IMG/VR virus record: IMGVR_UViG_3300024344_000037
Coordinates: 1 to 42,759 of that record
Reading direction: 5' to 3' (one strand)
From: a virus
Length of the DNA: 42,759 bases
Part shown: piece by piece, positions 6,369 to 42,759 of the stretch
Numbering within the stretch: the first letter of the stretch is position 1
How the letters are laid out: every line of letters starts with the position of its first letter
Made by a program: the position numbers and the translations under genes
The notes under the pieces: generated by a model
What the model was told of the DNA's origin: nothing
Database searches by the model: none
Seen by the model: only the letters and a program-made list of their open reading frames with translations

Positions 6369-6375
6369 TAATCAT

Positions 6376-6400: not shown

Positions 6401-6408
6401 AAAATATT

Positions 6409-6786: not shown

Positions 6787-6787
6787 A

Positions 6788-12696: not shown

Positions 12697-12703
12697 TTTG
12701 GCC

Positions 12704-12946: not shown

Positions 12947-12949
12947 GAT

Positions 12950-14076: not shown

Positions 14077-14079
14077 ATT

Positions 14080-16467: not shown

Positions 16468-16470
16468 ACG

Positions 16471-17517: not shown

Positions 17518-19456
17518 TTACTCACAACAGTCGTTTGTTGGCGGCATGAATATGTCGGTGGATGACACTCGACTAGGTGAAGACGAGTATAAGTTTGCCA
17601 GTAACGTTCGCAATCGCTTTGGTACACTTGAAGGAATTAAGAACGTTAACGACATTTCCAGCAGCATAGGTGCATTTACGGCTAATCCACCAGTACAAAA
17701 AATTTATTCTATTGGTGAGTTTGTATTTGTCTTTTTTGATGGCGGTTGTAAATATCGCAAACCATTAAACCCCGATAGTACTTGGGCTGTTCTTTATGGT
17801 GGTGGCACGATGAGCAGATCAGCTGAGATATTTGTGCAAGCTGTTCCAGCATCCACTCAGAACTTTTTACGCAAAGAAACACAAGTAGCGGGAGCGTCAC
17901 TTGAGTTGGATACAGAAGTAGCGGTTCAAAGAACAGTTGCAGCTATTATTGTGCAGGACGGTGTAAACCAACCAAAAATTATAGAACTAGTAGGTGGTTA
18001 TGCAACGGACAGAACAGCCAAGACTTACGCTGAGTGGTCTGATGGAACCTACACATCGCGTGAATACATTCCAATAGGAAAGCAAATGGCTTTCTTTAAC
18101 AACAAATTATTTGTTGTTAGTACAGACGGGACAGAAATTTATCATAGTGTGAGCGGTCGCCCAATGGATTTTGTTGTACCGATCACAACAGCGGGTAACA
18201 AAATAAACGCTGACGAGACAATTGGTGGCGCACCGGCAACAGCTTATACAGTCGGCTATAATGTAATTACAGCGTTATCGGTATTAAACAACGAGTCACT
18301 ATTTGTTTCAACATTGGGGGGAAGCTACGCTGTCATGCTGGACTATACGATGACAGTGTTTGCAGAGCCAATGTTCAAGAAGCAATACTTGTTTACTGCC
18401 AACTCGATTAACCAGCATTCGTTTGTTGACTTGCTTGGTGACTTTGCCTTCATTGATCCCGAAGGTTTGCGTTCATTTAACGCTGTGATGCAGTCAAAGA
18501 ACGAGGGACGCAATTCAGTCTTCTCACTTAAAGTCGCTCGACTGTTTAAAGGTGTTGTGCAAGACACCAGAAAATGTGCCGCTATAGTATACGATGATTA
18601 CGCTCTATTTGCGTGTAACACAATCTTTGGTCACGGCATCCTTGTCTTTGACACACTCACAAAACAGTTTGTAAGTTTTGATCAACTCACCGATGACAGT
18701 GGCAACAATATTGGGCCTGTCATAGAATTTGCCAAGGTGGAAACAAACAACAAGCGAGAGCTATTTGCGGTCACGCACGGGACACAATGCAAGAGCGCAA
18801 CGATTAACAACGGAAGTGGTTACTCGGTTGGTAGTGGGTTAACAATAACTGTTGATGCACTACCAATAAAATTGTCGTCAGGCACTGTTCTGGAATTTCC
18901 CGGTGGAGGAATATTGACTCTTACATCAGGAGCAAATGCAGGAGCTACCTCTTTATCTGGAAATCTGACCATAGCTAACGTGGTTGACAATGAAAAAGGT
19001 ATCGGAGATCAAGACTACAAGTGTGTTAAGTTATTTGAGGGTTCTAACTACGCAACGGCATACGTCGAGACTAGAGCATTTTGCACCAACGATACCAGAG
19101 TCGAACAGAAGCCGCAGGAACTTCGTCTTTTATTTAGCAAGTTACAATCAGCCTCGTCAGTCACGGCCACTCAACGTGTAAATGATGAGACAACACCAGA
19201 CACATCGGCTGGCTCACAGTCAAAAACATTGGCAGCGCAATCCACGCCGATTACATTTCCCGTAACTTTGTCAACAGTATGGAGTGGGCCTAAGCAAATA
19301 CAAAATTTACTTTACAATTTTCAAGGCGGCCAACAGGGTTGGAAAGTGTCTTACGCATTGAAATGGACTAATGGAATTAACCTGTCAAACATACAACTTC
19401 AGACACAAAATATTACTCCTATGAATCCAATGTTATCACAAGCTTATGTCAGTTAA
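17510..19456 (+). CDS. Tail nozzle / tail tubular protein B-like
   Basis: 648 residues from a GTG start overlapping the adaptor stop. The N-terminus SQQSFVGGMNMSVDDTRLGEDEYKFASNVRNRFGTLEGIKNV is the typical start of podovirus nozzle or packaged-DNA stabilisation proteins (T7 gp12, P22 gp10 type). The rest is beta-rich with propeller-like repeats (IGEFVFVFFDGG, MAFFNNKLFVVSTDG, SLFVSTLGGSYAVM, DYALFACNTIFGHGILVFDTLT). A C-terminal insertion (NNGSGYSVGSGLTITVDALPIKLSSG) may be a surface domain. It would close the tail tip and bind fibres. Confidence 0.82.
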   Translation: MADYSQQSFVGGMNMSVDDTRLGEDEYKFASNVRNRFGTLEGIKNVNDISSSIGAFTANPPVQKIYSIGEFVFVFFDGGCKYRKPLNPDSTWAVLYGGGTMSRSAEIFVQAVPASTQNFLRKETQVAGASLELDTEVAVQRTVAAIIVQDGVNQPKIIELVGGYATDRTAKTYAEWSDGTYTSREYIPIGKQMAFFNNKLFVVSTDGTEIYHSVSGRPMDFVVPITTAGNKINADETIGGAPATAYTVGYNVITALSVLNNESLFVSTLGGSYAVMLDYTMTVFAEPMFKKQYLFTANSINQHSFVDLLGDFAFIDPEGLRSFNAVMQSKNEGRNSVFSLKVARLFKGVVQDTRKCAAIVYDDYALFACNTIFGHGILVFDTLTKQFVSFDQLTDDSGNNIGPVIEFAKVETNNKRELFAVTHGTQCKSATINNGSGYSVGSGLTITVDALPIKLSSGTVLEFPGGGILTLTSGANAGATSLSGNLTIANVVDNEKGIGDQDYKCVKLFEGSNYATAYVETRAFCTNDTRVEQKPQELRLLFSKLQSASSVTATQRVNDETTPDTSAGSQSKTLAAQSTPITFPVTLSTVWSGPKQIQNLLYNFQGGQQGWKVSYALKWTNGINLSNIQLQTQNITPMNPMLSQAYVS

Positions 19457-19688
19457 CGTATCTCACACAGATTTTACAGACGCGACCACGTTGTTCGCTA
19501 ACCTTGCGGCAGCGAACGCCATGCTTGACGGTCTGACAGTACCAGACGCGACAACCAGCACGGATGGTGTTGTGAAGAAGGCAGCACTAGTAGCTGACCC
19601 TTCTGGTAATAGTGCAACAAATAATCAAACGGCAATTATTGCTATTTTAACAAGCCTTAAAAACGCTGGCATCATGTCCAGCTCATAA
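19446..19688 (+). CDS. Small fibre-like virion protein
   Basis: 80 residues, starting 11 bases inside the nozzle gene. The sequence VSHTDFTDATTLFANLAAANAMLDGLTVPDATTSTDGVVKKAALVAD, then NNQTAIIAILTSLKNAGIMSSS, resembles short modules found in phage head-fibre and tail proteins, with a C-terminal amphipathic helix that may trimerise. It probably belongs to the virion. Confidence 0.6.
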   Translation: MSVNVSHTDFTDATTLFANLAAANAMLDGLTVPDATTSTDGVVKKAALVADPSGNSATNNQTAIIAILTSLKNAGIMSSS

Positions 19689-21854: not shown

Positions 21855-24800
21855 CCCTTGAAGAAAAGAAGGCAAGATTTCGTAAAAGACATGGATTAGC
21901 AGACGATTATCCTGTCTTCACGCCCGAAGAAGCTGAGGCTAACAGACAGGCCCAGCAGATGAGTTCTGTTGGCGCAGCCTTTGAGGCAGCAAAAGATGAA
22001 GCAGTTCCCGGTCTTTTTGGTTTGGCCGGACTCAAGGGGGCTATACAAACTATAGGGAAAATTCCTCTTCCCGGAATTCCCGGTAAAGTAGCCAAAGGTA
22101 TTGGTATATTTGGTACTGCAATTGGCAGCGCAATAGCTGGACACAAAGTCCAAGACAAAGTTCTTGAAGCAGTCAGGGATGAGGACACAAATCAAGCCGA
22201 CAAACTTCTTTCACAAGAACTTCGCAAAGAACATCCAATTGCATTTACAACTGGTGAGGTTGTTGGTGGATCATTGGGCGGCGGTATTGGGCCATCAACA
22301 CAAAACCTTAAAGGTTTAGGCGAGCTTGTAAGAACTGGTGCTGGGTTGCGCGGTAAAGCTAACAAAGAACTTGTTAGCCATACACTACAAGAAGCCGGTG
22401 TTGGTGCAGGTGTTGGTATGGCACTTGAAGGTGCGCGTCAATATTCCGAGGGAGACTTTAAACCCGGCGCAATGATAACCACTGGCATTGGTGGTGCGTT
22501 GTTTACCAAACCAGTTTTACACGGCAAGAAGCTTATAGGTACACCAACTGTTCCTCAATCTGAAGCGCAGATTAGAGAACAAACAAGTGATGTTGAATTT
22601 GCTAACGTAACACAACCGAAGGTAAACCCTGACGCACAATTTGCTGATGAAACAATTCAACCAACTATTGAGCAAACCACCGCCCAAGAAGTTGTTTTCT
22701 TAAACGATCCAAGTCTATCGCCAGTGCAAAGGGCTGCGCGAATTGATGACTATCAGAAGATGTTTATGAGCAAGAAGGCTGGTGATGATGCGGCGAAAAA
22801 ACCCGGTAAAAATCCTGCCAAAGAAAGCTCAAAGAAAGACGCTAGTGATCAGCTAAATAAAAAAGCATCAGCCAAGCCAGAAGGTTTAGATGATCCACAA
22901 ATAGACGAAGCACTTGCGAAAAAGTTTGGCGATGAGGTTAAGATTGGAGTTAAGAGAGCAGTTGCAAATATCTCTGACGAAAAATTAAGCAACATTGAAC
23001 GCATGGCTCAAGGCGGTGCTGCTCGTCAATATGCCGATGAGATTAACCAGACTCCGGCAGAACTTCGCACAAAACTTGAAGCAGAGATTACAAAGAATCT
23101 TGGCCCTGACAGTTGGTTGACTGTTAAAAATCTAATGGCTCAACGCAACACGAGTATTAGATTAGCTGTAGATGAACTTGTTGATCAAGCTGGACGAACA
23201 GTTTACGGCTTTACGCCAAGAAACAGTCGCACAATTGTATTGTCTCCAGCTATGCTGGAAGAAACCCCTTTTCACGAAGTCGCTCATGTGTGGGCAAGCG
23301 ACATGATTGGCTCAGTCAGTCGTGACGGTCAACCAACTGCTGATTCTAACGCCATGAAAGGATGGCTAAAAGAGTTGTATGATGTAGATGAGAGTTCAAC
23401 TGTTAAAAGCAAAGACGATGCGTTGGAACAGTTTGCAAAGGAGACAGGAAGGCAACTAGCTGATAGGATGTTGAAGTTGCCGAAAGGTAAGTTTGATAAA
23501 ATGCGTCGGTGGTTTTCTGATATTCAACGAGGCCGTCGCATGGCAACTGGGAAATCTAGGAATAGAAATGACATCTTAGATTTCATGGCGCAACGCATTG
23601 AGATTGATAGAAACCCGCTTGCAGACACCGACTTAATGGCAAGAGAAGGTCAAAGCCTTGCGAGTTTTGTAGACTCAGCAAAGGTTTTTGATACGCAGTT
23701 GGGCGATCCATCAGAGAGTCACAAGTCAACAACCACAATTGATGGCGTTAAGTATGAGTCAGTTGCAAATGCTTATGCTGTCCCGACAGAGATTGCCAAG
23801 CTGTTTAATGTTCCCGATATGCCGAAAGGCTTTGCCAAGAAGTATGCAAATGAGTTGAACAAGCTGAAAGCATCTATCATGGAGGGCAATGAGTACACGC
23901 CTAGCCTAGATTATGTGCAGTCATTTAGCTTGGCTGAAGTTGATGATTACCCAGCAGCTTACAAAAGCATGATGCAAGGTTTGCAGAAGCGTAACACAGG
24001 TGCGCTCAAGCAAATCTTCAAGATGTTTGAGGATGATCCAATCGACATTACTTTGGAGACAAGCCAGCCCGATATGTACCGAGGCTTGTACGATGAGACT
24101 GAGATCAAGATTAACATTCCCACAATAGATGATAATTTTGATATGGTCTTGGCTCAACAGTTAGTTAAGCGACACTTACGGGATAATCAAGATGTGCTGA
24201 AAGACCTTACAGGTGTATGGCAGCGATTAACGTTTGGTGATACTTGGTTTCAAGGCTATGAGCCTGAGCTTGTTACAAGGTTTTTGAAGTTCGCATCCCA
24301 GCATGATATGCCCGAAGAGTTCGCGGCAGTGGTTGCACGTTACAGTGAAGACCTTGGAGTAGATGGTGTTCAACTCAGTTATCGAGGTCAGTCGGAATCA
24401 ATGCGTAACAACTTCGCGAAGTATCACGACAAGATGTTGAACCAAGGTAACTCATTGCACTTTGCAATGAAAAACCTGCCTGATGATGTACGCAAAGCTT
24501 TTGCCCAGACGATGTTAAACAAGTCTAGTATGTGGGATGATGCAGATACATTCCTTGCAGACTTTGATTCCATGATAAACACGTTTGGTGTTAGTGGCTC
24601 ACACGCTCGCAATCGCTTTAACAGATTAAGCCGATCACCAAGACACGTTATAGATGGCTTGGTGAGTAAGGAATCTTTTGTAGCACTTGATGGTTTTAAC
24701 AGGCTGTGGCCTCGCGTTGATGCAGCACCTCACGTTAGCCCGTTGGATCGTGGCGGTAAATTCTTAGAGGATTTGTGGTCAAAAGATGTTGTCCCGTTTG

Positions 24801-27800
24801 AGCAATCCAAGTTCACAACGATGCCAGCGTTGGACGCAATAACCCAGTTGTCTGAAGAGGCAATTAATATTAAGGGTCTGAAGAATATATTTGAGCGAGT
24901 TACGACTCCACCGATACCACCAAGGCGCGTTGATTATCATAGATCAACTAAGACTGCAAAAGATTCATCTACTATAGATATTGCAAATATGCTCAAGAAT
25001 GAGCCGCTGAATGCTACTCCAATAGACTTTGAAGGGCAGATGTCCCGCAAGAAAACTTTGGATGCAGAACGTGCCAAGCGATATGCAACCTTACCTGACT
25101 TCAATGCCAGAGAGCCGAAGACTTGGAAACCATTTCAGATGGCATTGCGTGGAGTGCGTCCTGTTGTTGACAGGATCAGAGAGATTGGGCTTACACCAGC
25201 AGCCAAGAAATTGGCAAGTCTTGTTGCAGACTCGTTTAATGCAACACTCAAGGATGAAACATTATTGAATGGTCAATACCTTGAGAAGCTTATGTTAATT
25301 CACAGCGAAGTTAAGATGTCACCAGCCGAGCTTGATGACCTTGGTGATTTTCAGTTACAGCGTTGGCACAAGAAGCTTGGGTTACGTGAGAAGTATGATC
25401 CAGAGTTATTTCAAAGATACACAGAGAACCCACGGATGCGTTACTATGATCGTGCGATTCAAAACATCATGCGTGACACACGCCAGTATCAGAATGATAT
25501 TGGAATGATGGTGGAATCACATCGGGATGGTAAGCCAGTGCTTTCTCCCGGCAAGTACACACAGGAATATACGCCAGAAATTATTACACAGGAAGTTCGG
25601 ACTGTGATGATGAAGCGTGAAACTGCGAGTCCCGAATATAATAAGCTAAAGCAAGAGGCTGTTGACTATTGGACAGGACTTGCAAAACGCTTTGACGAGA
25701 AGCTTGGCTCTGACGATCTTGACACAACACTAAGTATTGGCGAGGACGGCACACCACTTAAAGATGGCGGTGAAAATGATGCCGATAAGTTGCGGATAAA
25801 GTTTGAGCAATTGTTTGATAAGCTTGCGTTAAGCTTTCAAGGCAAAGAGAAAAAACTTGGGTCACACAAGTTTAAGGCATTGCGTGTTGCCACAGGTAAG
25901 TATGGTTTACCACCACATTGGGTTGAGCGTAATGCACTTCAACGACTGACTCGTTACGTTGTCCGCTTCTCGAAAGATGCAGCTTACTTTAAGAACGTTG
26001 AAGCAAAACCTGAAGTTCGCAAAGTTCTTGGAATACCAGATCAAGCAGGTAACTACAGTGATCTTGATATTGAAGGTCTCGAAAAAGGTGGGCCATTTAA
26101 TTTAAAGAATGTCATAGACGGCAAGATAGTTGATACAAACAAGAAAGGTTTTAGCAAAGACACACAAGCTTCGCATGAGGTACTTGATGATTTTATGCAA
26201 GGGTTTGTAGGTTACTACGAAGGTTGGGATATTTGGACACGCACATTTAACCGAATGGTTACATCCAGTTGGCTGGGATTCGGTGCGGGTATGCGTGATC
26301 TTTTATCCTCTTATATGTTTGCGTTGCCCTATATGCGAACACAGGATTTGCCAATCTTGGCAACACATTTAGTTGGCTGGAGTAACGCTTGGGTTAAAAG
26401 CTTTGAGATGGGCGTAAATAAGACTTCGCTGAACAATCTTGAGTGGCGACAGTCAGGGGCGAGTGAGGTTACAGATCAAGTAAACAAGGTAGCTGATGTT
26501 CTCTTAAAAGTTGGTGGCCGTAACACTCTTGAACAAGTTACACGAACCTTACAGTTTGCTTTTGGTAGGCAGCTTACTTTGCAAGCATTGCGGTCACATA
26601 ATAAAGCGACCATTGGTATTCCAGATTGGACAGCAGACAGACTTCTTAAGGCTGTTGATCAGCAGATGGGTGGCGGCGCAAACTTTCAAGGCAAACGCAA
26701 GAGCTTGTATGATTACATTGGCCAACCAAAACATAAGATTCCAGATGAAATTTTAGATCAAGCAGCAGCCGCTTGGGTTGAAATTAATCAAGGAACATAC
26801 GATGTACGAGGTCTGCCAAAGTTTACGCAACGCGGTGTTCCAAGTATGTTTACATCGCTTGCACGTTGGTCAATAGAGAAGTCTGATCGGATGGTTAAAG
26901 ATGTGCTGTTGCCACTTACAACACAGAACGATCCTTTGCCGTTGATCAAGGCAACGTTTGGCGCAGTGCTTGGCGGTCAGGCAATTGTTTACTTGAGTGA
27001 AGAGATCGCAAATAAAATACAAAGCGATCCCAAGTTGATTGAAGCAATTCAAATGGAGAATCCCAAGGAAGCTGCACAAGCTGTCATGTCGTCCGTGGCT
27101 TTTGCTGGTTACTTTGGAATACAGTCATCAATCGTGCATGATCTTGTAAGGGCATCTCGTTACGGTGTGCTTGAAGGGATTCCCGGTGGCCTTACGTTCC
27201 CCGCAGCAAACGCTGCATTTACAATAGCTAAAGATTTCTTTCATGTAGTTAGTTCTGGTGAAGCTGCTGGCGATAACTGGTGGGATACTTGGATGACGTT
27301 TGTACACAATACATTCAACGGTCTTAACCAGACTATGCGTTATGCTAGTCAGCACATTATGTTGTCTGATGAGATGTCAGACTTTAATGCAAGGGCGCAG
27401 CTTAGGAAGTTTACAAGACTTGAGGAGGGAGAGGTGCAACCGGGAGTTCCGTCTGGCATGAGCAATCCATACACTTGGCCAGCCCGTCGAGCTTTCCAAC
27501 GGTCGAATACTATGGCTGAAGCGCAAAGGCTTTTACCCGCAGCATTGAATGAAGCTGCTGAGAAAGCTATAAGACAACACCCCAACAATCCTGTTGAACA
27601 GAACAAACACTTTCAGAATAACTACAGGCAATTGTACAATCTTGATTGGCACGTTACACCTGCATTGCCTGACAAGAGAGACCCAGTAAGCCATCTCAAG
27701 CGTATGCGTTACTTGGGTCTGGAAGGGCCGAAGGAAGTAAACAGAGGTAAGGGTGATTTGACTAAGATTCTAGGCAAGAAGATAACAGGGGGAATGCAGC

Positions 27801-27931: not shown

Positions 27932-28028
27932 GCATAATGGCGATCAATGGGAGAAACTAATAACTCCTGCGACATCTTAATATTCGCCATGTACCATTAT
28001 GCTAGGTAGGAACACAGAAACCTACCTA
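27932..28028. terminator. Inverted repeats at the convergence of late and replication genes
   Basis: The 97-base gap between convergent genes holds GCATAATGG (27932-27940) with its reverse complement at 27994-28002, a nested ATGGCGA/TCGCCAT pair, and a separate eight-base-pair hairpin TAGGTAGG/CCTACCTA (28003-28010/28021-28028) that includes the stop codon of the minus gene. There is no long T-run on either strand, so if this terminates transcription it is not a canonical intrinsic terminator. It may instead limit collision of the two converging transcripts. Confidence 0.4.
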
Positions 28029-29264
28029 AAAACTCATAGTATTGTAGACATCATCAACAAGAGCCTTATACCAGCCATTGTTGTTTTCTACCTGCTCTGT
28101 AGTGACTAAGAACTCTAGTACTTGGTCTAGCTCTTGTTTACTGATTTCAGAGACAAAGTTCAACCACAATTTCTTGTAGCGAACTCCGACATCTGACTCG
28201 ATTATGAACCGCAAGATGTGCTTTGTAACCTCCCCGATAGGATTTCTACCGACTGTGTTGAAGGCTTCGTGCATCTTGTGTTCCGTTATGGCCAATAGTT
28301 TGGCTGCTCGTTTAATATCATCAAGGTCAATGATGAGATTTGTCTTGTCTGAGAAGTGTATGAGCATCGCTGTCTTTAGCAGATGAACATTCTTGCGTCC
28401 ATAGTAGTTGTCTAGTCGCGGGTCTTTGTTCACTCGCTTGGAAGACATTTCACCAGACTCATACCACTCCTTGTGCCACGCCGAGGCTTCTTCTGACAAA
28501 CGGACTTCACCAGAGACTTCGCGTAGTTTGTATAGATGATCAACAATGTCAGAGCGACACTTGATCTGCTTGTCCGAAAGGCCGGGAAATTGCCTAAAGA
28601 ATCTAGGCGCATGACCAAACACAACGATGACACGCGACGTGAAACCTTGGGAGATTATCTTGTCGCTGAATGCCTCACGAATAAACGATGGTGTAGTACC
28701 GCCGAGTAGTGTGACGCAAAGGTTTGTAATGTTATCGTCTCCTTGATGCTTACTCCTATATTGATAGGAGCGAGCATCGTAGAATTGATTCAACATATTA
28801 ACCATGTCTTCGGAGTTCTTTCTAAAAAGAACTCCAAGCTCCTCAATCATAAAACAGATTGAGTGATGAGATCGCTTACGCTTTGCATTACCGCCAAGCC
28901 TTTCATCAGTGATCTCGAATGTTCGCATACAATCATCACGCATATAACGCAGCAAGGACTCTTGCGTTGTTGTATCCGCACCGTATGGAAACATGGGAAC
29001 CATTGCATTCTTATCCTTGTTTGGTTCCATCAACTTCTCACTCTTGATTATGTCCGTGACTTGTGAGATCACCCGTGACTTACCGGCAGCGGGAGGCCCA
29101 ACCAAGAGCGTGAATATATTAGGATAGATTGCCATTGAGTCTGGATACAACCATACCCGACGCTGTAGAGCGGCACTTATAAGACTATAGAATCCCCAAT
29201 CTATAAACAGATCGGGAGACTCCATGTCCTTGAGATAATATCTCCATTTGTCAGGATTCGTCAT
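28026..29264 (-). CDS. DUF3987-like P-loop ATPase, possible replicative helicase
   Basis: 412 residues. Walker A is GPPAAGKS at residues 56-63, and a Walker B-like strand SICFMIEELGVLF lies around 135-147. IYPNIFTLLVGPPAAGKSRVI and LLGGTTPSFIREAF follow the pattern of DUF3987 proteins, which in phages often stand where a helicase would. It ends the leftward replication operon, just downstream of DNA polymerase and a 63-residue gene that overlaps its start by 14 bases. There is no primase zinc finger or TOPRIM domain. ATP-driven DNA unwinding or loading is inferred from context. Confidence 0.7.
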   Translation of the reverse strand: MTNPDKWRYYLKDMESPDLFIDWGFYSLISAALQRRVWLYPDSMAIYPNIFTLLVGPPAAGKSRVISQVTDIIKSEKLMEPNKDKNAMVPMFPYGADTTTQESLLRYMRDDCMRTFEITDERLGGNAKRKRSHHSICFMIEELGVLFRKNSEDMVNMLNQFYDARSYQYRSKHQGDDNITNLCVTLLGGTTPSFIREAFSDKIISQGFTSRVIVVFGHAPRFFRQFPGLSDKQIKCRSDIVDHLYKLREVSGEVRLSEEASAWHKEWYESGEMSSKRVNKDPRLDNYYGRKNVHLLKTAMLIHFSDKTNLIIDLDDIKRAAKLLAITEHKMHEAFNTVGRNPIGEVTKHILRFIIESDVGVRYKKLWLNFVSEISKQELDQVLEFLVTTEQVENNNGWYKALVDDVYNTMSF

Positions 29265-29442
29265 CTATCAGTGCCGCTGTAAGGTTGTTTAGGATTGTGT
29301 ACTCATCAAACTTCAACGTAAAAACGTTTCCATTTACTGTCATCACCAACAAATCCTCATAAGAATTGTCATCGCCTATCACCTTGTCCAACGCCACACT
29401 TACTTGATTATCATTTTTATTATACGATACTATCGACTTCAT
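29251..29442 (-). CDS. Small hypothetical protein
   Basis: 63 residues: MKSIVSYNKNDNQVSVALDKVI...VNGNVFTLKFDEYTILNNLTAALIDDES. It is acidic and predicted to be beta-rich with a C-terminal helix. It overlaps the polymerase end by 23 bases and the ATPase start by 14, so the three are probably co-translated. No family is recognised; an accessory replication protein is possible. Confidence 0.65.
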   Translation of the reverse strand: MKSIVSYNKNDNQVSVALDKVIGDDNSYEDLLVMTVNGNVFTLKFDEYTILNNLTAALIDDES

Positions 29443-31798
29443 TCATTTCCTTCCAGTTATGTCCGACCAACGCTTCTGAACGCATTTGAAATGGTTCACC
29501 ACGAGGCGAGACGAGTTTACGATTCATGTGTTTCATTGCCTCACTTGCAACAAGTGGGACATCCTTCTCATAGCATTGGAGTAGGACGCTATCGTGATTG
29601 TTTTGCAATACATCAACGCCCATGTCCAATAAGTCTTGTCGGTTTTGTAGCTCAACAAAAGCTAGGTTAGTGATACAGCCCACTGTTGATTGCGGTACAA
29701 AGGCGTAAGCCTCCTTGTACATTGATTCATCAATGAGTCCTGTGAATGTTCGCGGATAACCAAAGAGATTCTTTAGCATCTTCGTTTGTTTGAGTGTGCT
29801 GATAGTTTCGTTATGCCATTGATTGATCTCAGGGAATAACTTGTGATAGGTTGAAAGGAATCGCTTGGCTTCTTTAGCTTCCAGTGCAACTGCGCCTCGC
29901 GATTTTTGTAGTATGTTAATGCGGAATGTGGGGAACTTCATACCATAGTTGCTGGCGTGACAAACCATCTTCGCCATGAAGTAGTAACGACGATCTGCTG
30001 CCCAATCATCACTAGCCTTGATGACTTTGTTTAGTTCATCCCAGCCCTTGATTGATTTGAGTTGTGTGATTGGTGCGTTACAAAACTCATCCACACTTCT
30101 CCCAAGCTCGGCAGCCCATACGTCAGGGAATAGACGCAAGGCAACAAAGACATGGGATTTAATGTTCTCAAGGAATAGAGTCCTGAAGTTTCCCGGCACA
30201 CAAAGATAACCAACGATCATTGCCTCCGCTCCTGACTGATCGACCTGTACAAGTACTTTGTCTTTGTCAGCAATGAAGAGACAACGAAGTTTCTTGGGTA
30301 TGTTTTGTACGTTCGTTCCCCATTTGCCTAGCAAGCGGCGACTAGCCAGCCTGTAGGTTGTTGTTCCAGCCAGATTGTAGGCAGTTGTTATCCTGTCTTT
30401 CATCGGCTTTGTGTGAAGACCCTCGTAAGGAGGGAACTTTAGTTGTCCTGTCTCTTTCGCAACAGAGCGATAACGCAAGATGATAGAGACTGCCGGTAGG
30501 TTGTGCTTTAGGCGCAACTGAAGCAGCGTCTTCTCGTTAGTTAAGTCTCTGTCAGGTTTCTTCAAACCAAGACCTTCATAGAGATAGGCTGATACTTGTT
30601 TTGGGCTATTAGGATTTAACTCCCGACCAAGTAGAAGGCCAAGTATTCTGCGTAACTGGAATTGATAACGTTCGTTGTACATGGTTATCATGCGTAACTC
30701 TGGTGTATCAATGTGCATCCCTTGCAGCATTGCAGTCAGGTAGGGCTTAACCATTGAGTTTACCTGCTCAATAGACTTCTCAGCCCGAAGTGTCTCGGCC
30801 AAGTTGTCTAGTGTTGGTTTGATTAAAGCCATAGTCAGTACATCCTTTACGTTGTATTCATAAAGTTGCTGGAACTCACTGCTTGTCTGTGGATTGAAGC
30901 AGCCCTCGTTCTTGTGGTAGGGCTGGTCTGTGTAGAGAGATATGCAATGACCCAATGACTTCTCAACTTCAGGGAAAAGTCTGTGATGCGACAGCATTGT
31001 GTCGAACACCTTGGTTGGGGCAGGGATACCATAGCGATAGGCGATTACAAACAAGTCAAACAGAGCGTTGTGAATAATAACCGTGTTGTCACGCAATGCA
31101 ATGGCCAACGCTCGCAAAACTTTGTGAGTATTGTCATAGTAGTAGTGGTTGACTTGTAGCATTGGTACGCACCAGCCCTTGTCAGGGCCAAAAGAGAAGC
31201 CGAAGCAGGTCATCTCAAGGTGCGGATTTGTCTCAATGTCGAAGAACATTTCCTTATCCTTGGTATTTGTCAGCAGATCAATAATCTCCTGTTCCTTGGG
31301 ATAAGTGATTAGATCACCGCTCTCTGGCCTTGGCGGCACTCTGAGATACTGAGCGGCTTTGGCGACATCACGCAAGAACCAGAATCTCCAGTTACTACGC
31401 TTTGTCTTGCCGTGTCTAACGGTCTCGTACTCCATCTCTGTCTCGTTCGACAGGGGATTGAAGTAGGCTTTGCGGTCAATCGCGTCCTGTGGTGCAAAGG
31501 TTGCAATGTATGTTCTATTGTGTGCAACCCAAGGACAACCACGCTGTTCTCCGATAGAGGCGTTCTTGAATGTACTCAAGGCTTTTTGTCCCAACAAAAG
31601 AATTACCTTTGTGTCAGGCAAAAACCCCTCGCCAAGTGTACTAAGCAACCTAATGTCGCAAGCTTGACGAGGGATTCCCAATGCACCTTGAAATAGATGA
31701 CCGGCGTAACCCGAAATAAGTTCGCAATTATCGAACCTACTTTGACTTTCTAGTATTACCGTTAGTCCGCTGTAGTTCAGCGTTGGTTTGTGCCGCAT
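29420..31798 (-). CDS. polA: Family A DNA polymerase with UDG-like N-terminus and 3'-5' exonuclease
   Basis: 792 residues. Residues 1-115 (NCELISGYAGHLFQGALG, ILLLGQKALSTF, IGEQRGCPW, YIATFAPQDAIDR) follow the pattern of family 4/5 uracil-DNA glycosylase-like domains, which are known fused to some phage polymerases. The proofreading exonuclease has DIE at 187-189 (Exo I), HNALFD at 243-248 (Exo II) and YNVKD at 315-319 (Exo III). Polymerase motif A is DQSGAE (520-525), motif B has K610 with Y618-G619, and motif C is HDS (735-737). It replicates the phage genome. It overlaps the upstream gene by 62 bases. Tyr at 618 rather than Phe is the form tolerant of dideoxynucleotides. Confidence 0.95.
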   Translation of the reverse strand: MRHKPTLNYSGLTVILESQSRFDNCELISGYAGHLFQGALGIPRQACDIRLLSTLGEGFLPDTKVILLLGQKALSTFKNASIGEQRGCPWVAHNRTYIATFAPQDAIDRKAYFNPLSNETEMEYETVRHGKTKRSNWRFWFLRDVAKAAQYLRVPPRPESGDLITYPKEQEIIDLLTNTKDKEMFFDIETNPHLEMTCFGFSFGPDKGWCVPMLQVNHYYYDNTHKVLRALAIALRDNTVIIHNALFDLFVIAYRYGIPAPTKVFDTMLSHHRLFPEVEKSLGHCISLYTDQPYHKNEGCFNPQTSSEFQQLYEYNVKDVLTMALIKPTLDNLAETLRAEKSIEQVNSMVKPYLTAMLQGMHIDTPELRMITMYNERYQFQLRRILGLLLGRELNPNSPKQVSAYLYEGLGLKKPDRDLTNEKTLLQLRLKHNLPAVSIILRYRSVAKETGQLKFPPYEGLHTKPMKDRITTAYNLAGTTTYRLASRRLLGKWGTNVQNIPKKLRCLFIADKDKVLVQVDQSGAEAMIVGYLCVPGNFRTLFLENIKSHVFVALRLFPDVWAAELGRSVDEFCNAPITQLKSIKGWDELNKVIKASDDWAADRRYYFMAKMVCHASNYGMKFPTFRINILQKSRGAVALEAKEAKRFLSTYHKLFPEINQWHNETISTLKQTKMLKNLFGYPRTFTGLIDESMYKEAYAFVPQSTVGCITNLAFVELQNRQDLLDMGVDVLQNNHDSVLLQCYEKDVPLVASEAMKHMNRKLVSPRGEPFQMRSEALVGHNWKEMNEVDSIV

Positions 31799-32021
31799 TG
31801 AGTGCCTGTTCCTTTAGTTGTTCACGCAAGGTTTTGCCATCTTTCTCACTCTTCATGTAGTCTTGAAGCATCAAGATTACATCATCTATTCCAGACATAT
31901 AGCCATCAGCCAAAGCTGCGGCAGTCTTGTCCATTGTTAAGATTCTCAACCGCTCGAGCGGTTGAGAATACTCAGGTTGCTTGTCGCAAACCTCATCAAT
32001 TATTGATTGTATTTCTTTCAT
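31737..32021 (-). CDS. Hypothetical helical protein carrying a perfect palindrome
   Basis: 94 residues from ATG 32021: acidic, helical and Gln-rich towards the end (MLQDYMKSEKDGKTLREQLKEQALNAAQTNAELQR). The ATG lies 6 bases after a T-run closing an outer hairpin, so its expression may depend on read-through. Codons for YSQPLERLRIL contain a perfect 28-bp palindrome at 31942-31969. No family is recognised. It overlaps the polymerase start by 62 bases, so it is probably coupled to it. An in-frame start upstream (non-ATG, 32078) would run through the terminator region and is rejected. Confidence 0.65.
   Translation of the reverse strand: MKEIQSIIDEVCDKQPEYSQPLERLRILTMDKTAAALADGYMSGIDDVILMLQDYMKSEKDGKTLREQLKEQALNAAQTNAELQRTNGNTRKSK
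31942..31969. repeat. Perfect 28-bp palindrome inside a gene
   Basis: The sequence from 31942 to 31969 equals its own reverse complement over all 28 bases. It runs from ATTCTCAAC through a central CTCGAG to GTTGAGAAT, with no unpaired loop. Flanking bases (G at 31941, A at 31970) do not extend it. It falls within coding sequence. Confidence 0.95.
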
Positions 32022-32026
32022 TATAT

Positions 32027-32098
32027 AAAAAAGAAGGCTGGTCACGGGACAGACTCCGCACAAAAAACTGGTAATCATGAAACCAGTTTACCCAGCCT
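32027..32098 (-). terminator. Nested terminator hairpins / structured leader before 32021
   Basis: On the minus strand the region after the ssDNA-binding gene forms an inner hairpin AAACTGGT/ACCAGTTT (32082-32089 with 32065-32072) followed by six Ts, and an outer stem AGGCTGG/CCAGCCT (32092-32098 with 32035-32041) followed by TCTTTTTT. Each half looks like an intrinsic terminator, and they are nested with about 20 unpaired bases between them. The next ATG is at 32021. The element could end the recombination transcript or act as an attenuator controlling polymerase-side genes. Confidence 0.7.
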
Positions 32099-32105
32099 CG
32101 ATTGA

Positions 32106-32615
32106 TTACTGAACTACGATGTCCAACTCAGGCGCAGCAGACACGAGAGAACCGACAGAATAACCGTTGAAGGTCATTGGTTCACCAGTTGCAGGATCAA
32201 GCATAGCCTCACCCTCGCCATTCTTCTTGGTTATCTTCTCAGTCTTGATCGTGGCGTAAGCAGCCTTACCTTTGTAAAGGTCTGCATCAGTCTTGACCGT
32301 TCCCCAAGGATCGTTTTCATCGTCACAATCCAACTCTGACGGGAGGCTAAGAGTACGATGCACACGCTTTATGCGAGCAGCAGCTTTCTCCATGAACACC
32401 AAGTACTCACGAAATTGCAAACCAGCAATTCGTACAGTTCCCAAATCAGCATCTTCAATAGATTCGGGTGCAACGATTTCCCAAGTCAAGACAACCATAG
32501 GGTTGCCAGCTTGAGACCTTCTTGATTCCGCATCAGCAACGCGGATTGTGTATGTGTTTGACGGCAAGAACGGTCGAGCGTTCTCGGTTACTTCATTTAG
32601 GTTTATAATAGGCAT
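32106..32615 (-). CDS. Single-stranded DNA-binding protein, DUF669-like
   Basis: 169 residues. YTIRVADAESRRSQAGNPMVVLTWEIVAPESIEDADLGTVRIAGLQFREYLVFMEKAAARIKRVHRTL matches the OB-fold pattern of DUF669/phage ssDNA-binding proteins (a strand, then KS.aGNPM..l..eV), and the C-terminal part has the late strand GKAAYATIKTEK. It would coat ssDNA for replication and annealing. Its neighbour is a Sak4-like ATPase, and the two are a usual pair. It is followed by a terminator at 32062. A short hairpin lies in the 37-base gap upstream. Confidence 0.75.
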   Translation of the reverse strand: MPIINLNEVTENARPFLPSNTYTIRVADAESRRSQAGNPMVVLTWEIVAPESIEDADLGTVRIAGLQFREYLVFMEKAAARIKRVHRTLSLPSELDCDDENDPWGTVKTDADLYKGKAAYATIKTEKITKKNGEGEAMLDPATGEPMTFNGYSVGSLVSAAPELDIVVQ

Positions 32616-32652
32616 TTTGTTTTTCTTTTATCCTTGCTTCATGCAAGAAATT

Positions 32653-33297
32653 CTAGGCATAGTATTTTTCTAGGCTTGTGATAACTGTGTTTAGGTCGTT
32701 TGGAATGTACAAATCCTTGAACAGACCAAGAGGTGTCTTTGCGGAAGTTATGCCATCTGAATTTGTTTGAAAACAATATTCAATGGAATCCTTGCCACGC
32801 CTGACTTCGGTGAACAAGACGAGAAGAAGTTCCTTCTCAATGCACCCCTCATGTACCTTACCCTGCACCTTGATACGGCGCGTGTTGTATTCACCTCCAG
32901 TTGGTTGCATGATCTTAACGATCTCATCAATGGCTGTGATAACAACGGTCGCCTTCTCATTCTTGAGACTATCCAACGTTTTGCGGATAGCCTTGTTGTA
33001 GTATGACCACACATCGTAGCCCTTGTACATTTTCTGAGCTGTCTCAATTAGAATCTCACAATATTTCGTGAATGATTCAATGACAACTATATCAGCGTTT
33101 ACCAAAGAAGTGGCAATCGCCTTGTCGATCTCAGGCAAAGTGCTGGCCGATATAATCGTGAAGTTCTTAGCTTCCCTAAACGGTAAGCCTTTCCGCTCAA
33201 GATCAATGATGATGGTCTTATCAGCGGGAAGATTCCGTAACGATGTTGACTTACCAGAACCGCTGGAGCCAACTATTCCTATTAGTGGTTTATTCAT
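32653..33297 (-). CDS. Sak4-like RecA-fold ATPase (single-strand annealing)
   Basis: 214 residues. Walker A is GSSGSGKS at 10-17, a Walker B-like strand NADIVVIESF lies at 68-76, and TVVITAIDEI and a late TEVRRGKDSIEYCFQTNSDG follow the compact RecA-like core of phage Sak4 proteins. Sak4 promotes single-strand annealing with a partner ssDNA-binding protein and usually sits with a 5'-3' exonuclease. Here the DUF669-like gene is downstream and a Cas4/RecB-type nuclease is upstream, so the whole set is present. It overlaps the preceding small gene by 8 bases. Confidence 0.82.
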   Translation of the reverse strand: MNKPLIGIVGSSGSGKSTSLRNLPADKTIIIDLERKGLPFREAKNFTIISASTLPEIDKAIATSLVNADIVVIESFTKYCEILIETAQKMYKGYDVWSYYNKAIRKTLDSLKNEKATVVITAIDEIVKIMQPTGGEYNTRRIKVQGKVHEGCIEKELLLVLFTEVRRGKDSIEYCFQTNSDGITSAKTPLGLFKDLYIPNDLNTVITSLEKYYA

Positions 33298-33502
33298 TTT
33301 TCAGTTTCTCCTTCAGTACCGTGAGGTAATGAAATTGGTCAATAGTTTCTTCGATAGCAGCGTCGATTAGCTGTGAGGCGTTCATGCGCCACAACCCTTT
33401 GTCGCCTTTTGGATTATGTTCAAGCATCCCAACGTCAAATTTCTTGGGTGCTTCACGCACAAAGTTTGCTAGTGCGAGTCGTTTAATTTCTGGATCGGTC
33501 AT
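33290..33502 (-). CDS. Small hypothetical protein
   Basis: 70 residues: MTDPEIKRLALANFVREAPKKFDVGMLEHN, then KGLWRMNASQLIDAAIEETIDQFHYLTVLKEKLKNE. The EET.DQ.HYL helix is reminiscent of MazG-like or dNTP pyrophosphohydrolase helices, but too little is present to claim an enzyme. It overlaps the nuclease stop by ATGA and the Sak4-like start by 8 bases, so it belongs to the recombination operon. Confidence 0.65.
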   Translation of the reverse strand: MTDPEIKRLALANFVREAPKKFDVGMLEHNPKGDKGLWRMNASQLIDAAIEETIDQFHYLTVLKEKLKNE

Positions 33503-34407
33503 GTTTGGAATTTTAAAGGATCGTATAGTTTAGTGTAATAGTCATTATCAATGACTGCTTCAGAGTGTTCACCGGCATTACAGATACGAGTGAATCTGCA
33601 CATACCGAACTTTGTCTCACAACAATTATAGTTGGGAAGGAATGGGATAGTGTCAGTAGCCAGACCTTCCTTGAGTTGATCAGCAAAGCTTACGACGGTA
33701 TTGGTCAAGTGCTTCTCAAACTTCTCCATCCTGTCTTCAGAGAAATCTAGGATTGCACTGCGTTGGAACTTGTTCTTACCCGTGCGCGACAAGAAGATGC
33801 CGTTGATAACAGCTTGATAGTTGCGGTCAGGGAATAGTTTGCGTAGAACCATCGTGTAAGCCATCAACTGTGTAGACATTCTGTAAGTGTCTAGGTAACG
33901 GTCAACGCTTGTGATTGCCGTGGACTTGTGATCACAAAGAACACTTTGCCCAAAGAAAGTTCCAATGAAGTCGATTGTACCACACAACAAAACATCAATT
34001 GTTCCGTTCGTGTAAAAAGGATACGCAAACTTCATCTCAAGTAATGGCTCACCTTTATGTCGCTCAACAACAAGACCGTCTACTTCTGCGTAGTTGTCAA
34101 AGTATTGAGTGAGGCAGGTTGCAAGATGACCGGCAGTACGCCAGTCAGAGTCAGGTACAATGATTTGTGGGTTTGCGTAGTGTTCCAAAGCAATGTTTAT
34201 TGATTCAGTCCTGTCTCCAGTACTGTAAAAATGTTCCAATGCCTTGTGGTATGCCGTGCCATACTCCATCTTGTGATTCATGTGGTTGTTCCGTAGACCA
34301 CGAACTGTGGTATAGAAGAACCTGAGATCACAAGTGGATTCACGGTATGATGATGCATCTATTCGCAAGATGTATCTGTCACCAGTTTTTTCAAGTAGAT
34401 TTTTCAA
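33499..34407 (-). CDS. PD-(D/E)XK nuclease, Cas4/RecB-like, with cysteine cluster
   Basis: 302 residues from a TTG at 34407, with GGAGAGG about 16 bases upstream and no usable ATG. GTAYHKALE (50-58), GTIDFIG (143-149, catalytic Asp), CDHKST (158-163, the D-x-K of the nuclease core) and QLMAY (180-184) are the Cas4/RecB order. C26 together with C262/C263, C270 and C276 fits a 4Fe-4S cluster holding the C-terminus to the core. Such enzymes are 5'-3' exonucleases that make ssDNA for annealing. Together with the Sak4-like and DUF669-like genes it forms a recombination module. Confidence 0.85.
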   Translation of the reverse strand: MKNLLEKTGDRYILRIDASSYRESTCDLRFFYTTVRGLRNNHMNHKMEYGTAYHKALEHFYSTGDRTESINIALEHYANPQIIVPDSDWRTAGHLATCLTQYFDNYAEVDGLVVERHKGEPLLEMKFAYPFYTNGTIDVLLCGTIDFIGTFFGQSVLCDHKSTAITSVDRYLDTYRMSTQLMAYTMVLRKLFPDRNYQAVINGIFLSRTGKNKFQRSAILDFSEDRMEKFEKHLTNTVVSFADQLKEGLATDTIPFLPNYNCCETKFGMCRFTRICNAGEHSEAVIDNDYYTKLYDPLKFQT

Positions 34408-34659: not shown

Positions 34660-35150
34660 TTCATCACCCTCACTTTCGATTCAGTCACATCAACTTCAGA
34701 GTCAGAACTTACTAGATTGTAAATCCACTCCTTGTCATTGGGGCTGATTGCCACACTACGCTCAAACAACTCAGAGTCCTTGGCAGTCTTGTACCAAGTC
34801 TCCAAGTCATTCTTCCAGCGAATACTATCGTTGAACTCATACTCAAGTTCACGAAGAGTCATGCGGTTTTTAGTCACATCCTTGAAGTAAGCAAGGATTC
34901 CATTGTCCAGCTTGCGAAAGGCAATGCGAGAACGCAGAATCACATACTTGTTATCGTCAAAGTTATCAATGATGAACTTAAAGCCATCGTTAAACTTAAC
35001 GTAAAGAGTGTTTGGCGTTAAACCTGTCTCCTGTGAGGAGATGTAAACATCCTTACCTGTCTCCAACAAACGATCAAGGATAGGCTGGATCTGCTTCGCC
35101 GCGTTTGGCGAGTAGCTTGATCGGTTTATGCCAGAGTTTTCGCTTTGCAT
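34656..35150 (-). CDS. Hypothetical protein
   Basis: 164 residues. The N-terminus is polar (MQSENSGINRSSYSPNAAKQIQPILDRLL), then ISSQETGLTPNTLYVKFNDGFKFIIDNF suggests a small mixed alpha/beta, possibly winged-helix-like fold. The C-terminus is helical and acidic. No catalytic motif. It overlaps the upstream gene by 25 bases and starts the run of coupled genes leading to the nuclease. A regulatory or DNA-binding role is possible but cannot be shown. Confidence 0.65.
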   Translation of the reverse strand: MQSENSGINRSSYSPNAAKQIQPILDRLLETGKDVYISSQETGLTPNTLYVKFNDGFKFIIDNFDDNKYVILRSRIAFRKLDNGILAYFKDVTKNRMTLRELEYEFNDSIRWKNDLETWYKTAKDSELFERSVAISPNDKEWIYNLVSSDSEVDVTESKVRVMK

Positions 35151-35527
35151 TGCTCCATTAATTCCTTTGCTTCCTCAAGGTTTCCCTTGGCCACGGCAGC
35201 TTGAGACATCATGAATAGCTTGCGAGCAGACAGGCCACGAATTGTGGGATGCCAAGTCTTACAATCTTCAATCGAGAAGACGCAGCCATCAGCGTGTTTG
35301 CGGTAAAGCTCATCCTTGTATCTCTCAAGCTGAGAGGATGGTAGATTCTTGGGCAGACTGTTCTTAACCTTGGTTCTCAAGCGCGATTGAATCTGTTGAT
35401 TCAACAGAGCAAGGACTGTTGCTTCGGTGTAAGCATCAACTGCCTCAGACAGTTTCTCAAAGACAGGAACATAGAACTTGAGTCCTTTGAAATCCCCATC
35501 AACATATTTTTCTTGTTTGTGTTGCAT
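35126..35527 (-). CDS. Hypothetical protein, first gene of the sigma-54-type unit
   Basis: 133 residues from ATG 35527. FKGLKFYVPVFEKLSEAVDAYTEATVLALLNQQIQSRLRTKVKNSLPKNL is helical. A C-terminal LSARKLFMMSQAAVAKGNLEEAKELMEQCKAKTLA looks like a helical repeat. No family is recognised. It lies 34 bases downstream of the sigma-54-type -12 box at 35563-35564, so it would be the first gene of the middle transcript that runs to DNA polymerase. An in-frame TTG at 35533 is also possible. Confidence 0.65.
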   Translation of the reverse strand: MQHKQEKYVDGDFKGLKFYVPVFEKLSEAVDAYTEATVLALLNQQIQSRLRTKVKNSLPKNLPSSQLERYKDELYRKHADGCVFSIEDCKTWHPTIRGLSARKLFMMSQAAVAKGNLEEAKELMEQCKAKTLA

Positions 35528-35533
35528 AATCAA

Positions 35534-35549
35534 GGTTAAAAAGTTAACC
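35534..35549. repeat. Palindrome at the predicted transcription start
   Basis: GGTTAA-AAAG-TTAACC is a six-base-pair inverted repeat with a four-base spacer. It lies 14 bases downstream of the -12 GC of the minus-strand sigma-54-type promoter, covering the expected start of transcription. It could be an operator or only the 5' hairpin of the transcript. Confidence 0.6.
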
Positions 35550-35560
35550 TGCTAACATAT

Positions 35561-35580
35561 AAGCAGTAACCGTGCCAACT
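35561..35580 (-). promoter_or_regulatory. Sigma-54-type promoter for the replication/recombination genes
   Basis: Read on the minus strand, AGTTGGCACGGTTACTGCTT has GG at 35576-35575 and GC at 35564-35563, separated by ten bases. The -24 box TTGGCACG matches the consensus fully, and the -12 box CTGCT differs in one base. It sits in the 71-base gap between the activator gene and the gene starting at 35527, facing all the replication genes. The AAAAAGTTGGCAC context is shared with the site at 42547. Confidence 0.75.
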
Positions 35581-35598: not shown

Positions 35599-36324
35599 CT
35601 AATAGATGATAAATTCACCCAATAACTTGTACCGTGCCATTATACCTTGTACCTCTCTGTAGTTCCCGTCGAGTGTTGTTAGCTTTAGGATTTTAGTGGC
35701 CATGTCTTTCGCTTGCTTTGGCTCAATGTCGTGAGTCTTGTGGATGTAGAGTGCAAGGTCATTGGGCCGCTCTCTGATCGGCGTAGTCTTTATGATGAAA
35801 ACTGTGAGACGATGGTAGAGGTCTAGTCGAAACTCGCCAGACTTGATCATCTCCTTCAAGTCGCGGTTGGTAGAGCAGACTATACGGCAAGTTGCCGCGC
35901 TTAGTTTGGCTGCACCAACTTTGCGGAACTGTTTGTGTTGTACGAATCGCAGTAGCTTTGGCTGGGATGTGAGCTTGAGTTCCCCAATCTCATCAAGAAA
36001 TAGTGTGCCGCCAGCAGCAAGTTGTACAAGACCGCCTGTGTCACGAGTCGCTCCTGTGAATGCACCTTGTTTGTGTCCGTAAAGGAGTGATTCAAACAGG
36101 TCTTCTTGCAGAGTGGTGACGTTGACAGGTACAAAATTTGAGCCGCGTATGGCTTCTTGGCTGGACGATGGACAGCGATCTCCGTGAAGGATTTCAGCAA
36201 AGTGTTCCTTCCCTGTGCCAGACTCCCCTGTTATGAGAACAGGGGAGTCTTGGCTTGCAAGAACTTGAGCGAATCTTATTTGCTCAAGCATATGCGGGTC
36301 TTCAGTCAATATCGTCCCACTCAT
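35599..36324 (-). CDS. Sigma-54 activator: stand-alone enhancer-binding-protein AAA+ domain
   Basis: 241 residues from ATG 36324. All hallmarks of the NtrC/PspF-type AAA+ domain are present: Walker A GESGTGKE (33-40), the sigma-54-contacting loop GAFTGA (87-92), Walker B GGTLFLDEIGEL (105-116), sensor I STNRD (151-155), the arginine-finger stretch GEFRLDLYHRL (163-173), RERPNDL (184-190) and a sensor II-like GNYREVQ (220-226). GAFTGA is specific to proteins that remodel sigma-54 polymerase. The protein stops at the end of this domain: there is no regulatory domain and no Fis-type helix-turn-helix. Its gene immediately precedes a sigma-54-type promoter. It would use ATP to open host sigma-54 polymerase at the phage's middle and late promoters. 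Confidence 0.93.
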   Translation of the reverse strand: MSGTILTEDPHMLEQIRFAQVLASQDSPVLITGESGTGKEHFAEILHGDRCPSSSQEAIRGSNFVPVNVTTLQEDLFESLLYGHKQGAFTGATRDTGGLVQLAAGGTLFLDEIGELKLTSQPKLLRFVQHKQFRKVGAAKLSAATCRIVCSTNRDLKEMIKSGEFRLDLYHRLTVFIIKTTPIRERPNDLALYIHKTHDIEPKQAKDMATKILKLTTLDGNYREVQGIMARYKLLGEFIIY

Positions 36325-36487
36325 CAACTTCAGCCCATTTTGTTTTTAGTATCTTTTCCCAATCCCAATCACTTGGATGACCGTCATTTGTTGAGTACTC
36401 AAATGAGATGGTGATTTGGACTTCTTTTATCTGCCCGTCATCAACTGGGGGATGCTCATTCTCCCGTTGGCTCCATGCATCTATCAT
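36302..36487 (-). CDS. Small acidic hypothetical protein, upstream of the activator
   Basis: 61 residues: MIDAWSQRENEHPPVDDGQIKEVQITISFEYS, then HPSDWDWEKILKTKWAEVDEWDDID. Acidic and Trp-rich. It overlaps the DUF932 gene by ATGA and the activator start by 23 bases, so it is made with the activator. No family is recognised. Because the activator lacks a DNA-binding domain, a partner from this gene is worth considering, although its acidity argues against direct DNA binding. Confidence 0.65.
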   Translation of the reverse strand: MIDAWSQRENEHPPVDDGQIKEVQITISFEYSTNDGHPSDWDWEKILKTKWAEVDEWDDID

Positions 36488-37565: not shown

Positions 37566-37942
37566 CACCATGAATTGTAGAAAATCTGCCAGCCTTCCCT
37601 TATAAGTTTCTTTGCTGACTGACAGAACTGTTTATCTTTATCATACACAAACTCAAAGTAGTGGTTCATGTCTGAGTAGGAGTCTTGTCCAAAGAAGAAT
37701 CCCTCAGTCTCAGGCAGATTGCCGCACTTTATTGATTCTTCTAGCGTGGTGATGTCGGATAGTGTCAGGTCAATTGGCACACAATTGAATACTTCTGTGC
37801 CGCCCTGCTTGTTGTAGACTGACTCTGCCCAGCCTTGTAGCCTGTTGTGCTTGCGCCAACAGGCTATCTCACGGACAACCTGAGTAGGATGTCCTAAGAT
37901 GTTTATTGTTTTTTGGGCATTTGCCCATTGATCTAGTCCCAT
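37562..37942 (-). CDS. Conserved phage protein, MGLDQ...WRK family
   Basis: 126 residues. MGLDQWANAQ, REIACWRKHNRLQGWAESVYN, FNCVPIDLTLSDITTLEESIKCGNLPETEGFFFG and the terminal YNSWW match a common phage family that databases sometimes mislabel as phosphoglycerate kinase; there is no kinase fold here. Its function is unknown. It overlaps the DnaA-like gene by 10 bases and ends within the fibre-repeat fragment on the other strand. Confidence 0.75.
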   Translation of the reverse strand: MGLDQWANAQKTINILGHPTQVVREIACWRKHNRLQGWAESVYNKQGGTEVFNCVPIDLTLSDITTLEESIKCGNLPETEGFFFGQDSYSDMNHYFEFVYDKDKQFCQSAKKLIREGWQIFYNSWW

Positions 37943-38217
37943 TGTCTTGCGTGTTTCATGAATTTCTTGAGGTCTTCCACCGCTTGCTTGCTTGTATCAA
38001 GCTGATTTTGAACCATTTTACAACCGTAATGAACGGCTGAACCGTCTAGTCTCCAAAATCTTGCGATGTCGGATTGTTTGTACCCTGCGTCCTTGGCAAT
38101 CCACTGGCAAATATGCCGTGGTCGAACGAACTTGGCCTGTCTACATGGAGAAATTAAATCAACGTAGGCAACGCCATAGTAATCTGCTGCTGCGTGAGCT
38201 AATTGTTGTAGATTCAT
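37933..38217 (-). CDS. DnaA domain IV-like DNA-binding protein
   Basis: 94 residues. AAADYYGVAYVDLISPCRQAKFVRPRHICQWIAKDAGYKQSDIARFWRLDGSAVHYGCKMVQNQL matches the helix-turn-helix of bacterial DnaA domain IV: (Y/F)xV...dL.S..R......aR.i..yl....G.s...Ig......dhStVh. The AAA+ ATPase part of DnaA is absent. It may mark the phage origin, compete for host DnaA boxes, or act as a regulator. The AT-rich repeat region at 40.9-42.05 kb is its likeliest target, but no canonical TTATCCACA box was noticed. Confidence 0.75.
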   Translation of the reverse strand: MNLQQLAHAAADYYGVAYVDLISPCRQAKFVRPRHICQWIAKDAGYKQSDIARFWRLDGSAVHYGCKMVQNQLDTSKQAVEDLKKFMKHARQWD

Positions 38218-42425: not shown

Positions 42426-42486
42426 GTGCCTAGATGGGAGGGGGGAATGAAGGGAGGGGGGCCAGAAGTTGAGCTGTAACAGAACT

Positions 42487-42669
42487 ATGCACATCTCTGA
42501 AAAAATGACCTCAAAAAACCTTAACTTTTATACTAAAATGTTAAAAGTTGGCACACTTCCAGCTTTAATACAGGCTATGTCTGAGAGAGCGATAGAGATT
42601 TGTGAGCAAACACCCTTGATCAAGTACGCCATTTATGTTAATCCAAAGGTATGGGAACGAATCAAGTAG
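42487..42669 (+). CDS. Doubtful small ORF overlapping the late promoter
   Basis: 60 residues from ATG 42487, read MHISEKMTSKNLNFYTKMLKVGTLPALIQAMSERAIEICEQTPLIKYAIYVNPKVWERIK. It contains the whole sigma-54-type promoter at 42547-42566, whose predicted start is near 42575, so transcripts from that promoter could make at most the last 30 residues from ATG 42577. The C-terminal sequence looks protein-like, and the stop overlaps the next gene by 19 bases. No family is recognised. Confidence 0.35.
   Translation: MHISEKMTSKNLNFYTKMLKVGTLPALIQAMSERAIEICEQTPLIKYAIYVNPKVWERIK
42547..42566 (+). promoter_or_regulatory. Sigma-54-type promoter for the packaging/late operon
   Basis: GTTGGCACACTTCCAGCTTT has GG at 42550-42551 and GC at 42562-42563 with ten bases between. 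The -24 box TTGGCAC is perfect; the -12 box CAGCT keeps the GC and final T. It shares AAGTTGGCA.ACTTC and GCTTTAATACAGG with the capsid promoter. An inverted repeat AACTTTTA/TAAAAGTT (42524-42531 with 42542-42549) ends at the -24 box. Confidence 0.65.
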
Positions 42670-42759
42670 CTGAAGGCCCATTAATAAAGCGCGTTCCCGG
42701 CGGTTTCGCTGAGTTTCGTGCCAAGGAATCTGGTCTCCCACCCGCTCGCCTTAACAAGT
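42651..42759 (+). CDS. Hypothetical protein, N-terminal part (continues at base 1)
   Basis: ATG 42651 opens MGTNQVAEGPLIKRVPGGFA...ARLNK and is still open at the last base, one base into a codon. Joined to base 1 the frame continues without a stop to 71, giving 59 residues and a TGATG overlap with the nuclease. It is the first gene clearly downstream of the sigma-54-type promoter at 42547. No family is recognised. Confidence 0.7.
   Translation, partial: MGTNQVAEGPLIKRVPGGFAEFRAKESGLPPARLNK

Follow-up and report, generated by a model that had tools for sequence, protein, structure and literature searches.

The site at 35561-35578 on the minus strand of the window (the whole 42,759-nt stretch of viral DNA analysed here) is best read as a phage sigma-54 (RpoN) promoter opened by an AAA+ activator that the phage itself encodes, and the same applies to two further sites, (b) and (c), in this genome (probability about 0.85). 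The sites, their spacing and conservation, the gene order and the domain make-up of the activator are directly observed. The features concerned are the following, with gene labels of the replication run taken from Pfam and PHROGs.

35599 to 36327, minus strand: sigma-54 activator of 242 aa, AAA+ domain only (PF00158, E 9e-55)
35561 to 35578, minus strand: sigma-54 promoter (a), TTGGCACGGTTACTGCTT, with exact GG-N10-GC
35534 to 35549, no strand assigned: palindrome GGTTAAaaagTTAACC, GGTTAA-N4-TTAACC, at +3 to +18 of the predicted transcript
35126 to 35527, minus strand: first gene of the replication run, 133 aa, adjoining (a) in all clades
28026 to 34407, minus strand: replication/recombination run with PD-(D/E)XK exonuclease, Sak4-like annealing protein, DNA polymerase A and DUF3987 primase-helicase
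393 to 1907, plus strand: terminase large subunit (phrog_2, E 3e-26)
4865 to 4880, plus strand: sigma-54 promoter (c), TGGCAGACTTCTTGCT, second-best site (13.8 bits), before the probable capsid gene
4974 to 6368, plus strand: probable major capsid protein, 464 aa, downstream of (c)
42549 to 42564, plus strand: sigma-54 promoter (b), TGGCACACTTCCAGCT, third-best site (13.3 bits), at the head of the packaging operon
42651 to 42759, plus strand: start of a large gene (~950-1100 aa) that is cut by the window end and matches the start of the large gene in the related record G001

Read on the minus strand from 35578 to 35561, promoter (a) has the sequence TTGGCACG-GTTA-CTGCTT. The sigma-54-type motif with exact GG-N10-GC reported in the first-pass annotation is thus present, and it fits the TGGCAC / TTGCW consensus; what decides its nature is conservation and the spacing control described below. 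It also meets a second criterion, namely that a promoter should be non-coding, in sense, upstream of a gene and conserved despite a changing spacer. The scoring matrix was built manually on the published consensus for sigma-54 promoters and was not fitted to these phages. With this matrix (a) is the top sigma-54-like site in the window at 17.9 bits, compared with 13.8 and 13.3 for the runners-up. The gap holding (a), between the activator stop (35599) and the probable start codon of the following gene (ATG at 35527), measures 71 bases, exactly as had been claimed. Counting from the -12 base (C of GC) at 35563 gives an expected start at 35551, the same value as proposed earlier. An early sigma-70 promoter was also sought, and none stood out.

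The palindrome had been described as covering the start, but it lies just downstream of it. It is present as a single copy in the window and is predicted by folding to form a weak 5' hairpin (-5.4 kcal/mol, z -1.7). Only the nearest clade keeps it (GGTTT..AAACC in G001). Because it is clade-specific and lost in the other, sister clades, it could be ruled out as a component of the promoter.

The main evidence that the sites are sigma-54 promoters is a spacing control, in which sites of at least 13 bits with spacings of N8-N12 were compared across nine non-redundant related phage records. At the GG-N10-GC spacing we found 22 sites that are non-coding and in sense, none that are non-coding and antisense, and 9 within coding sequence. 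No non-coding sense sites were seen at N8, N9, N11 or N12, where 3-24 coding sites were present. The top two sites of each record were non-coding and in sense in 18/18 cases for N10 and in 0/18 for the other spacings. As the nine records are related, the 18 sites do not represent independent events; it is the variable spacers that show sequence divergence.

Conservation points the same way. The activator is encoded at 70-96% identity by 14 viral contigs, and in all 14 TTGGCAY and TGCT are retained in the gap, with varying bases between them (GGTTAC, AGTTCC, ACTTCA, GCAAGT). Relatives found via the capsid gene have activators down to 33% identity, followed by the same promoter core, and every tested relative record of at least 25 kb encodes the activator. 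In 13 relative records the highest-scoring sites recur at two or three fixed locations. Site (a) precedes the gene of 134-140 aa that comes next after the activator, (b) stands 72-140 bases ahead of a ~950-1240-aa gene heading the packaging operon, and (c), where present, stands 87-96 bases ahead of the capsid gene (159 in G012), with its core kept and different spacers. Promoter (c) is missing in a more distant group (G008, G010, G011, G014 and G016). Within the window, (b) and (c) have GTTGGCA.ACTTC..GCTTTAATACAGG in common. The suggestion that the promoter is placed to link the activator with the replication genes is strongly supported by the site conservation, the spacing and the PF00158 neighbour.

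Some of the flanking genes are less well defined. The 133-aa first gene gave a moderate-confidence model with no fold match. The 464-aa gene is conserved across the phage group, and no family named it; its identification as the probable major capsid protein is inferred from position, length and conservation. The split large gene ends at about 1-71 at the other end of the window, and about 2.7 kb is missing, which marks the record as a permuted fragment.

The activator aligns to the AAA+ domains of NtrC1, NtrC, FleQ and PspF, and the family alignment shows intact motifs: Walker A GESGTGKE, the GAFTGA loop (GSFTGA in one relative, L013), the DEIGE box and the arginine fingers. It meets the bEBP criteria of an AAA+ domain with Walker A/B, GAFTGA and arginine fingers, and fails those of an N-terminal regulatory domain, as the AAA+ domain starts at residue 7 (PF00158), and of a C-terminal helix-turn-helix (HTH). 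No HTH match and no receiver were found, the protein stopping just after the AAA+ domain, and this reduction holds in the distant clades that were read. For lack of an HTH we file it as an AAA+-only sigma-54 activator and not as an enhancer-binding protein. It is matched by phrog_7998, a PHROG with no assigned function, so databases already contain phage AAA+ activators that are not named as such. Bacterial activators without a DNA-binding domain include those of Helicobacter (FlgR) and Chlamydia. Truncated DctD250, without receiver and DNA-binding domains, gives constitutive sigma-54 activation and needs no enhancer (PMC3844500). It is an engineered protein with the same or a similar domain reduction, whereas the phage activator occurs naturally, in a virus, and seems to serve phage promoters only. 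From this precedent and the missing receiver and HTH we infer action from solution, and the phage protein would probably work without a fixed enhancer.

Two further elements were noted near the promoters. About 42480-42509 (plus strand), upstream of (b), lies a ~30-bp non-coding block, CAGAACTATSACCCTCTCTGRRAAAATGAC (approximate consensus), which is conserved across clades as a single copy and could be a packaging site, an origin or a regulator site. AACWGTT pairs, often 20 bases apart, are found near (a) and (b) in G008, G010, G011, G014 and G015, where they flank or overlap the -24 element. The block by (b) and the pairs in the distant clade suggest that another DNA-binding regulator may also be involved. 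In G008, G011, G015 and G016 the DNA between the activator and (a) resembles tail-fibre-type coding sequence with NVAIGYNAG repeats.

Transcription with sigma-54 cannot start without an ATP-driven activator. In the mechanism that we propose, host polymerase with host sigma-54 (the latter unverified) would sit on (a) as an inactive closed complex. The activator, once made, would assemble as a ring and open this complex from solution, with no fixed enhancer. The same protein would open (b), which heads the packaging operon, and (c), which precedes the probable capsid gene. Because the same promoter type stands before both, the activator would switch late genes besides the middle ones, and one early product might commit the infection to replication and then to particle making. 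Promoter activity, sigma-54 dependence, enhancer-free action and time order are all inferred in the absence of transcript or protein data, and so is the earlier idea that the early operon switches on the middle operon.

The strongest competing explanation accepts (a) as a real sigma-54 promoter and has it driven by host activators, with the phage AAA+ protein mainly disturbing host sigma-54 promoters. Many activators can open sigma-54 closed complexes, and such an arrangement has a parallel in Pseudomonas phage YuA (Yuavirus), which is strictly dependent on host sigma-54 (PMC5053324). YuA has three annotated -24/-12 promoters, at structural genes, and 0 PF00158 genes as against 1 in the window, so host activators must act there. 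In the present phages, however, all long records that were tested have both the activator gene and the promoters, and in the window's clade and its relatives (a) comes after the activator gene, which leaves this explanation possible but unlikely.

We give still less credence to the motif being a site for some unknown phage DNA-binding protein (an operator, or a site for replication or packaging) that merely resembles a sigma-54 promoter. The palindrome beside (a) and the conserved ~30-bp block upstream of (b) would suit such a site, yet operators need no orientation, and the enrichment is restricted to the 10-base spacing, to the sense strand and to positions upstream of genes; these phages moreover encode the cognate activator. 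A chance match in the gap can hardly be sustained at all. Judged from the window alone it might be entertained, since 17.9 bits or better is reached anywhere in the genome in 1/60 whole-genome shuffles and the weaker sites (b) and (c) are unremarkable by score, even though both lie in gaps and in sense. It is the conservation, the spacing control and the repeated position in relatives that make it very unlikely.

If (a), (b) and (c) are sigma-54 promoters opened by the phage activator, the sigma factor itself has to come from somewhere. No sigma-54 gene (PF04552) was found in the window or in eleven relatives, so host sigma-54 must serve. The host could not be traced: alignment scans of genome contigs with the capsid (MCP) and the viral sigma-54 found no relatives, and a search for tRNA genes as a host clue found none. 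A sister clade, however, has a sigma-54 of its own. Its representative G018 is a syntenic phage with DUF3987 primase-helicase, DNA polymerase A, Sak4-like protein, PD-(D/E)XK nuclease, activator, terminase and capsid, and it encodes the following gene.

G018, 24499 to 25788, minus strand: complete sigma-54 (RpoN), 429 aa (clade loci L109 and L117-L130)

This protein has domains for interaction with the activator, for core binding and for DNA binding, and its RpoN box is intact. A viral sigma-54 is carried by 13 viral contigs, 13/13 of them with the activator, and nine further viral sigma-54 contigs were found via that clade's activator. In seven records of the clade, TGGCA..GCT at N10 occurs at 18 non-coding sense sites and at no antisense ones, and each of the other spacings has at most 2 non-coding sense sites. 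The sites precede rpoN (45 bases upstream of the gene in the G018 clade), a 215-aa early gene, packaging genes and a ~430-aa gene of the structural region. We lean, with some reservation, towards a broad tailed-phage lineage in which replication and particle genes form a viral sigma-54 regulon under an enhancer-free AAA+ activator, and in which one branch carries a complete sigma-54 of its own, forming with the activator a self-amplifying pair that would no longer need that of the host. In the collections and papers searched, this sister clade holds the first viral sigma-54 found. PHROGs contains no sigma-54 family, and the sigma-54 matches in the phage record collection look, judging from the record names, like bacterial DNA in phage preparations.

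Some of the sigma-54-like sites in G018, G024, G026, G028 and G032 lie 13-15 bases before the ATG, so that their transcripts would be nearly leaderless. The idea that the viral sigma-54 has co-evolved with an altered -12 element (AAGCT/AGGCT) was unsupported, as G050, which has the activator without sigma-54, also uses TAGCT.

Phage use of host sigma-54 is already known from YuA, and the window meets a YuA-type criterion, with two late -24/-12 sites and no sigma-54 gene of its own. The two share a lytic programme with host sigma-54 at structural genes. YuA differs in having no activator, and its replication genes are without annotated -24/-12 promoters. The annotated YuA sites are not among its best sites by the matrix used here. 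Kinship with Yuavirus was not supported in the phage records, where the MCP had no match and the DNA polymerase and TerL matched only weakly. The phage activator shares with the NtrC/PspF family (PF00158) the intact AAA+ domain with Walker motifs, GAFTGA and arginine fingers. Unlike members of that family, it lacks a receiver/sensor and a helix-turn-helix and is encoded beside its likely target promoter.

Several phage proteins, T4 AsiA/MotA among them, steer the host polymerase towards middle or late genes. The likeness is that a protein made early by the phage shifts this polymerase to the following class of genes; the difference is that in the present case the shift would rest on sigma-54 closed complexes being opened with the energy of ATP and not on sigma-70 appropriation or a phage sigma-70-like factor. 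Gp46 of Bdellovibrio phage phi1422 has been named a sigma-54 regulator (PMC3391216). This protein (L207, 24471-24800; 109 aa) has a Fis-type HTH and no AAA+ domain, and as an HTH-only protein it was ruled out as an earlier phage sigma-54 activator. Neither a phage-encoded RpoN nor a phage activator described together with the promoters that it targets was found in the open-licence literature, which is weak evidence.

By supplying the activator alone, a phage would place most of its genome under a tight, delayed switch that consists of one ~240-aa protein and draws on polymerase already bound at the phage promoters. The system would also provide an activator that is naturally minimal, needs no enhancer and comes with matching promoters, and such phages would be restricted to hosts with sigma-54.

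A few minor observations were made along the way. Positions 1-19500 of G004 come from a different phage, with genes for DNA polymerase A, a terminase and an SU10-type capsid, and not from a host, and this record is probably chimeric. At 37933-38217 (minus strand) the window encodes an early protein of 94 aa that contains a DNA-binding domain of the DnaA type (PF08299, E 1e-8). The capsid leader at 4896-4942 (plus strand) contains two small hairpins with the identical loop AAGGGCAU, for which Rfam gave no match. Their stems vary between clades with compensation (GGU/ACC, GCC/GGC; GUG/CAC, GCG/CGC), and they persist in relatives even where promoter (c) is absent; perhaps they form an RNA-binding or translational control site.
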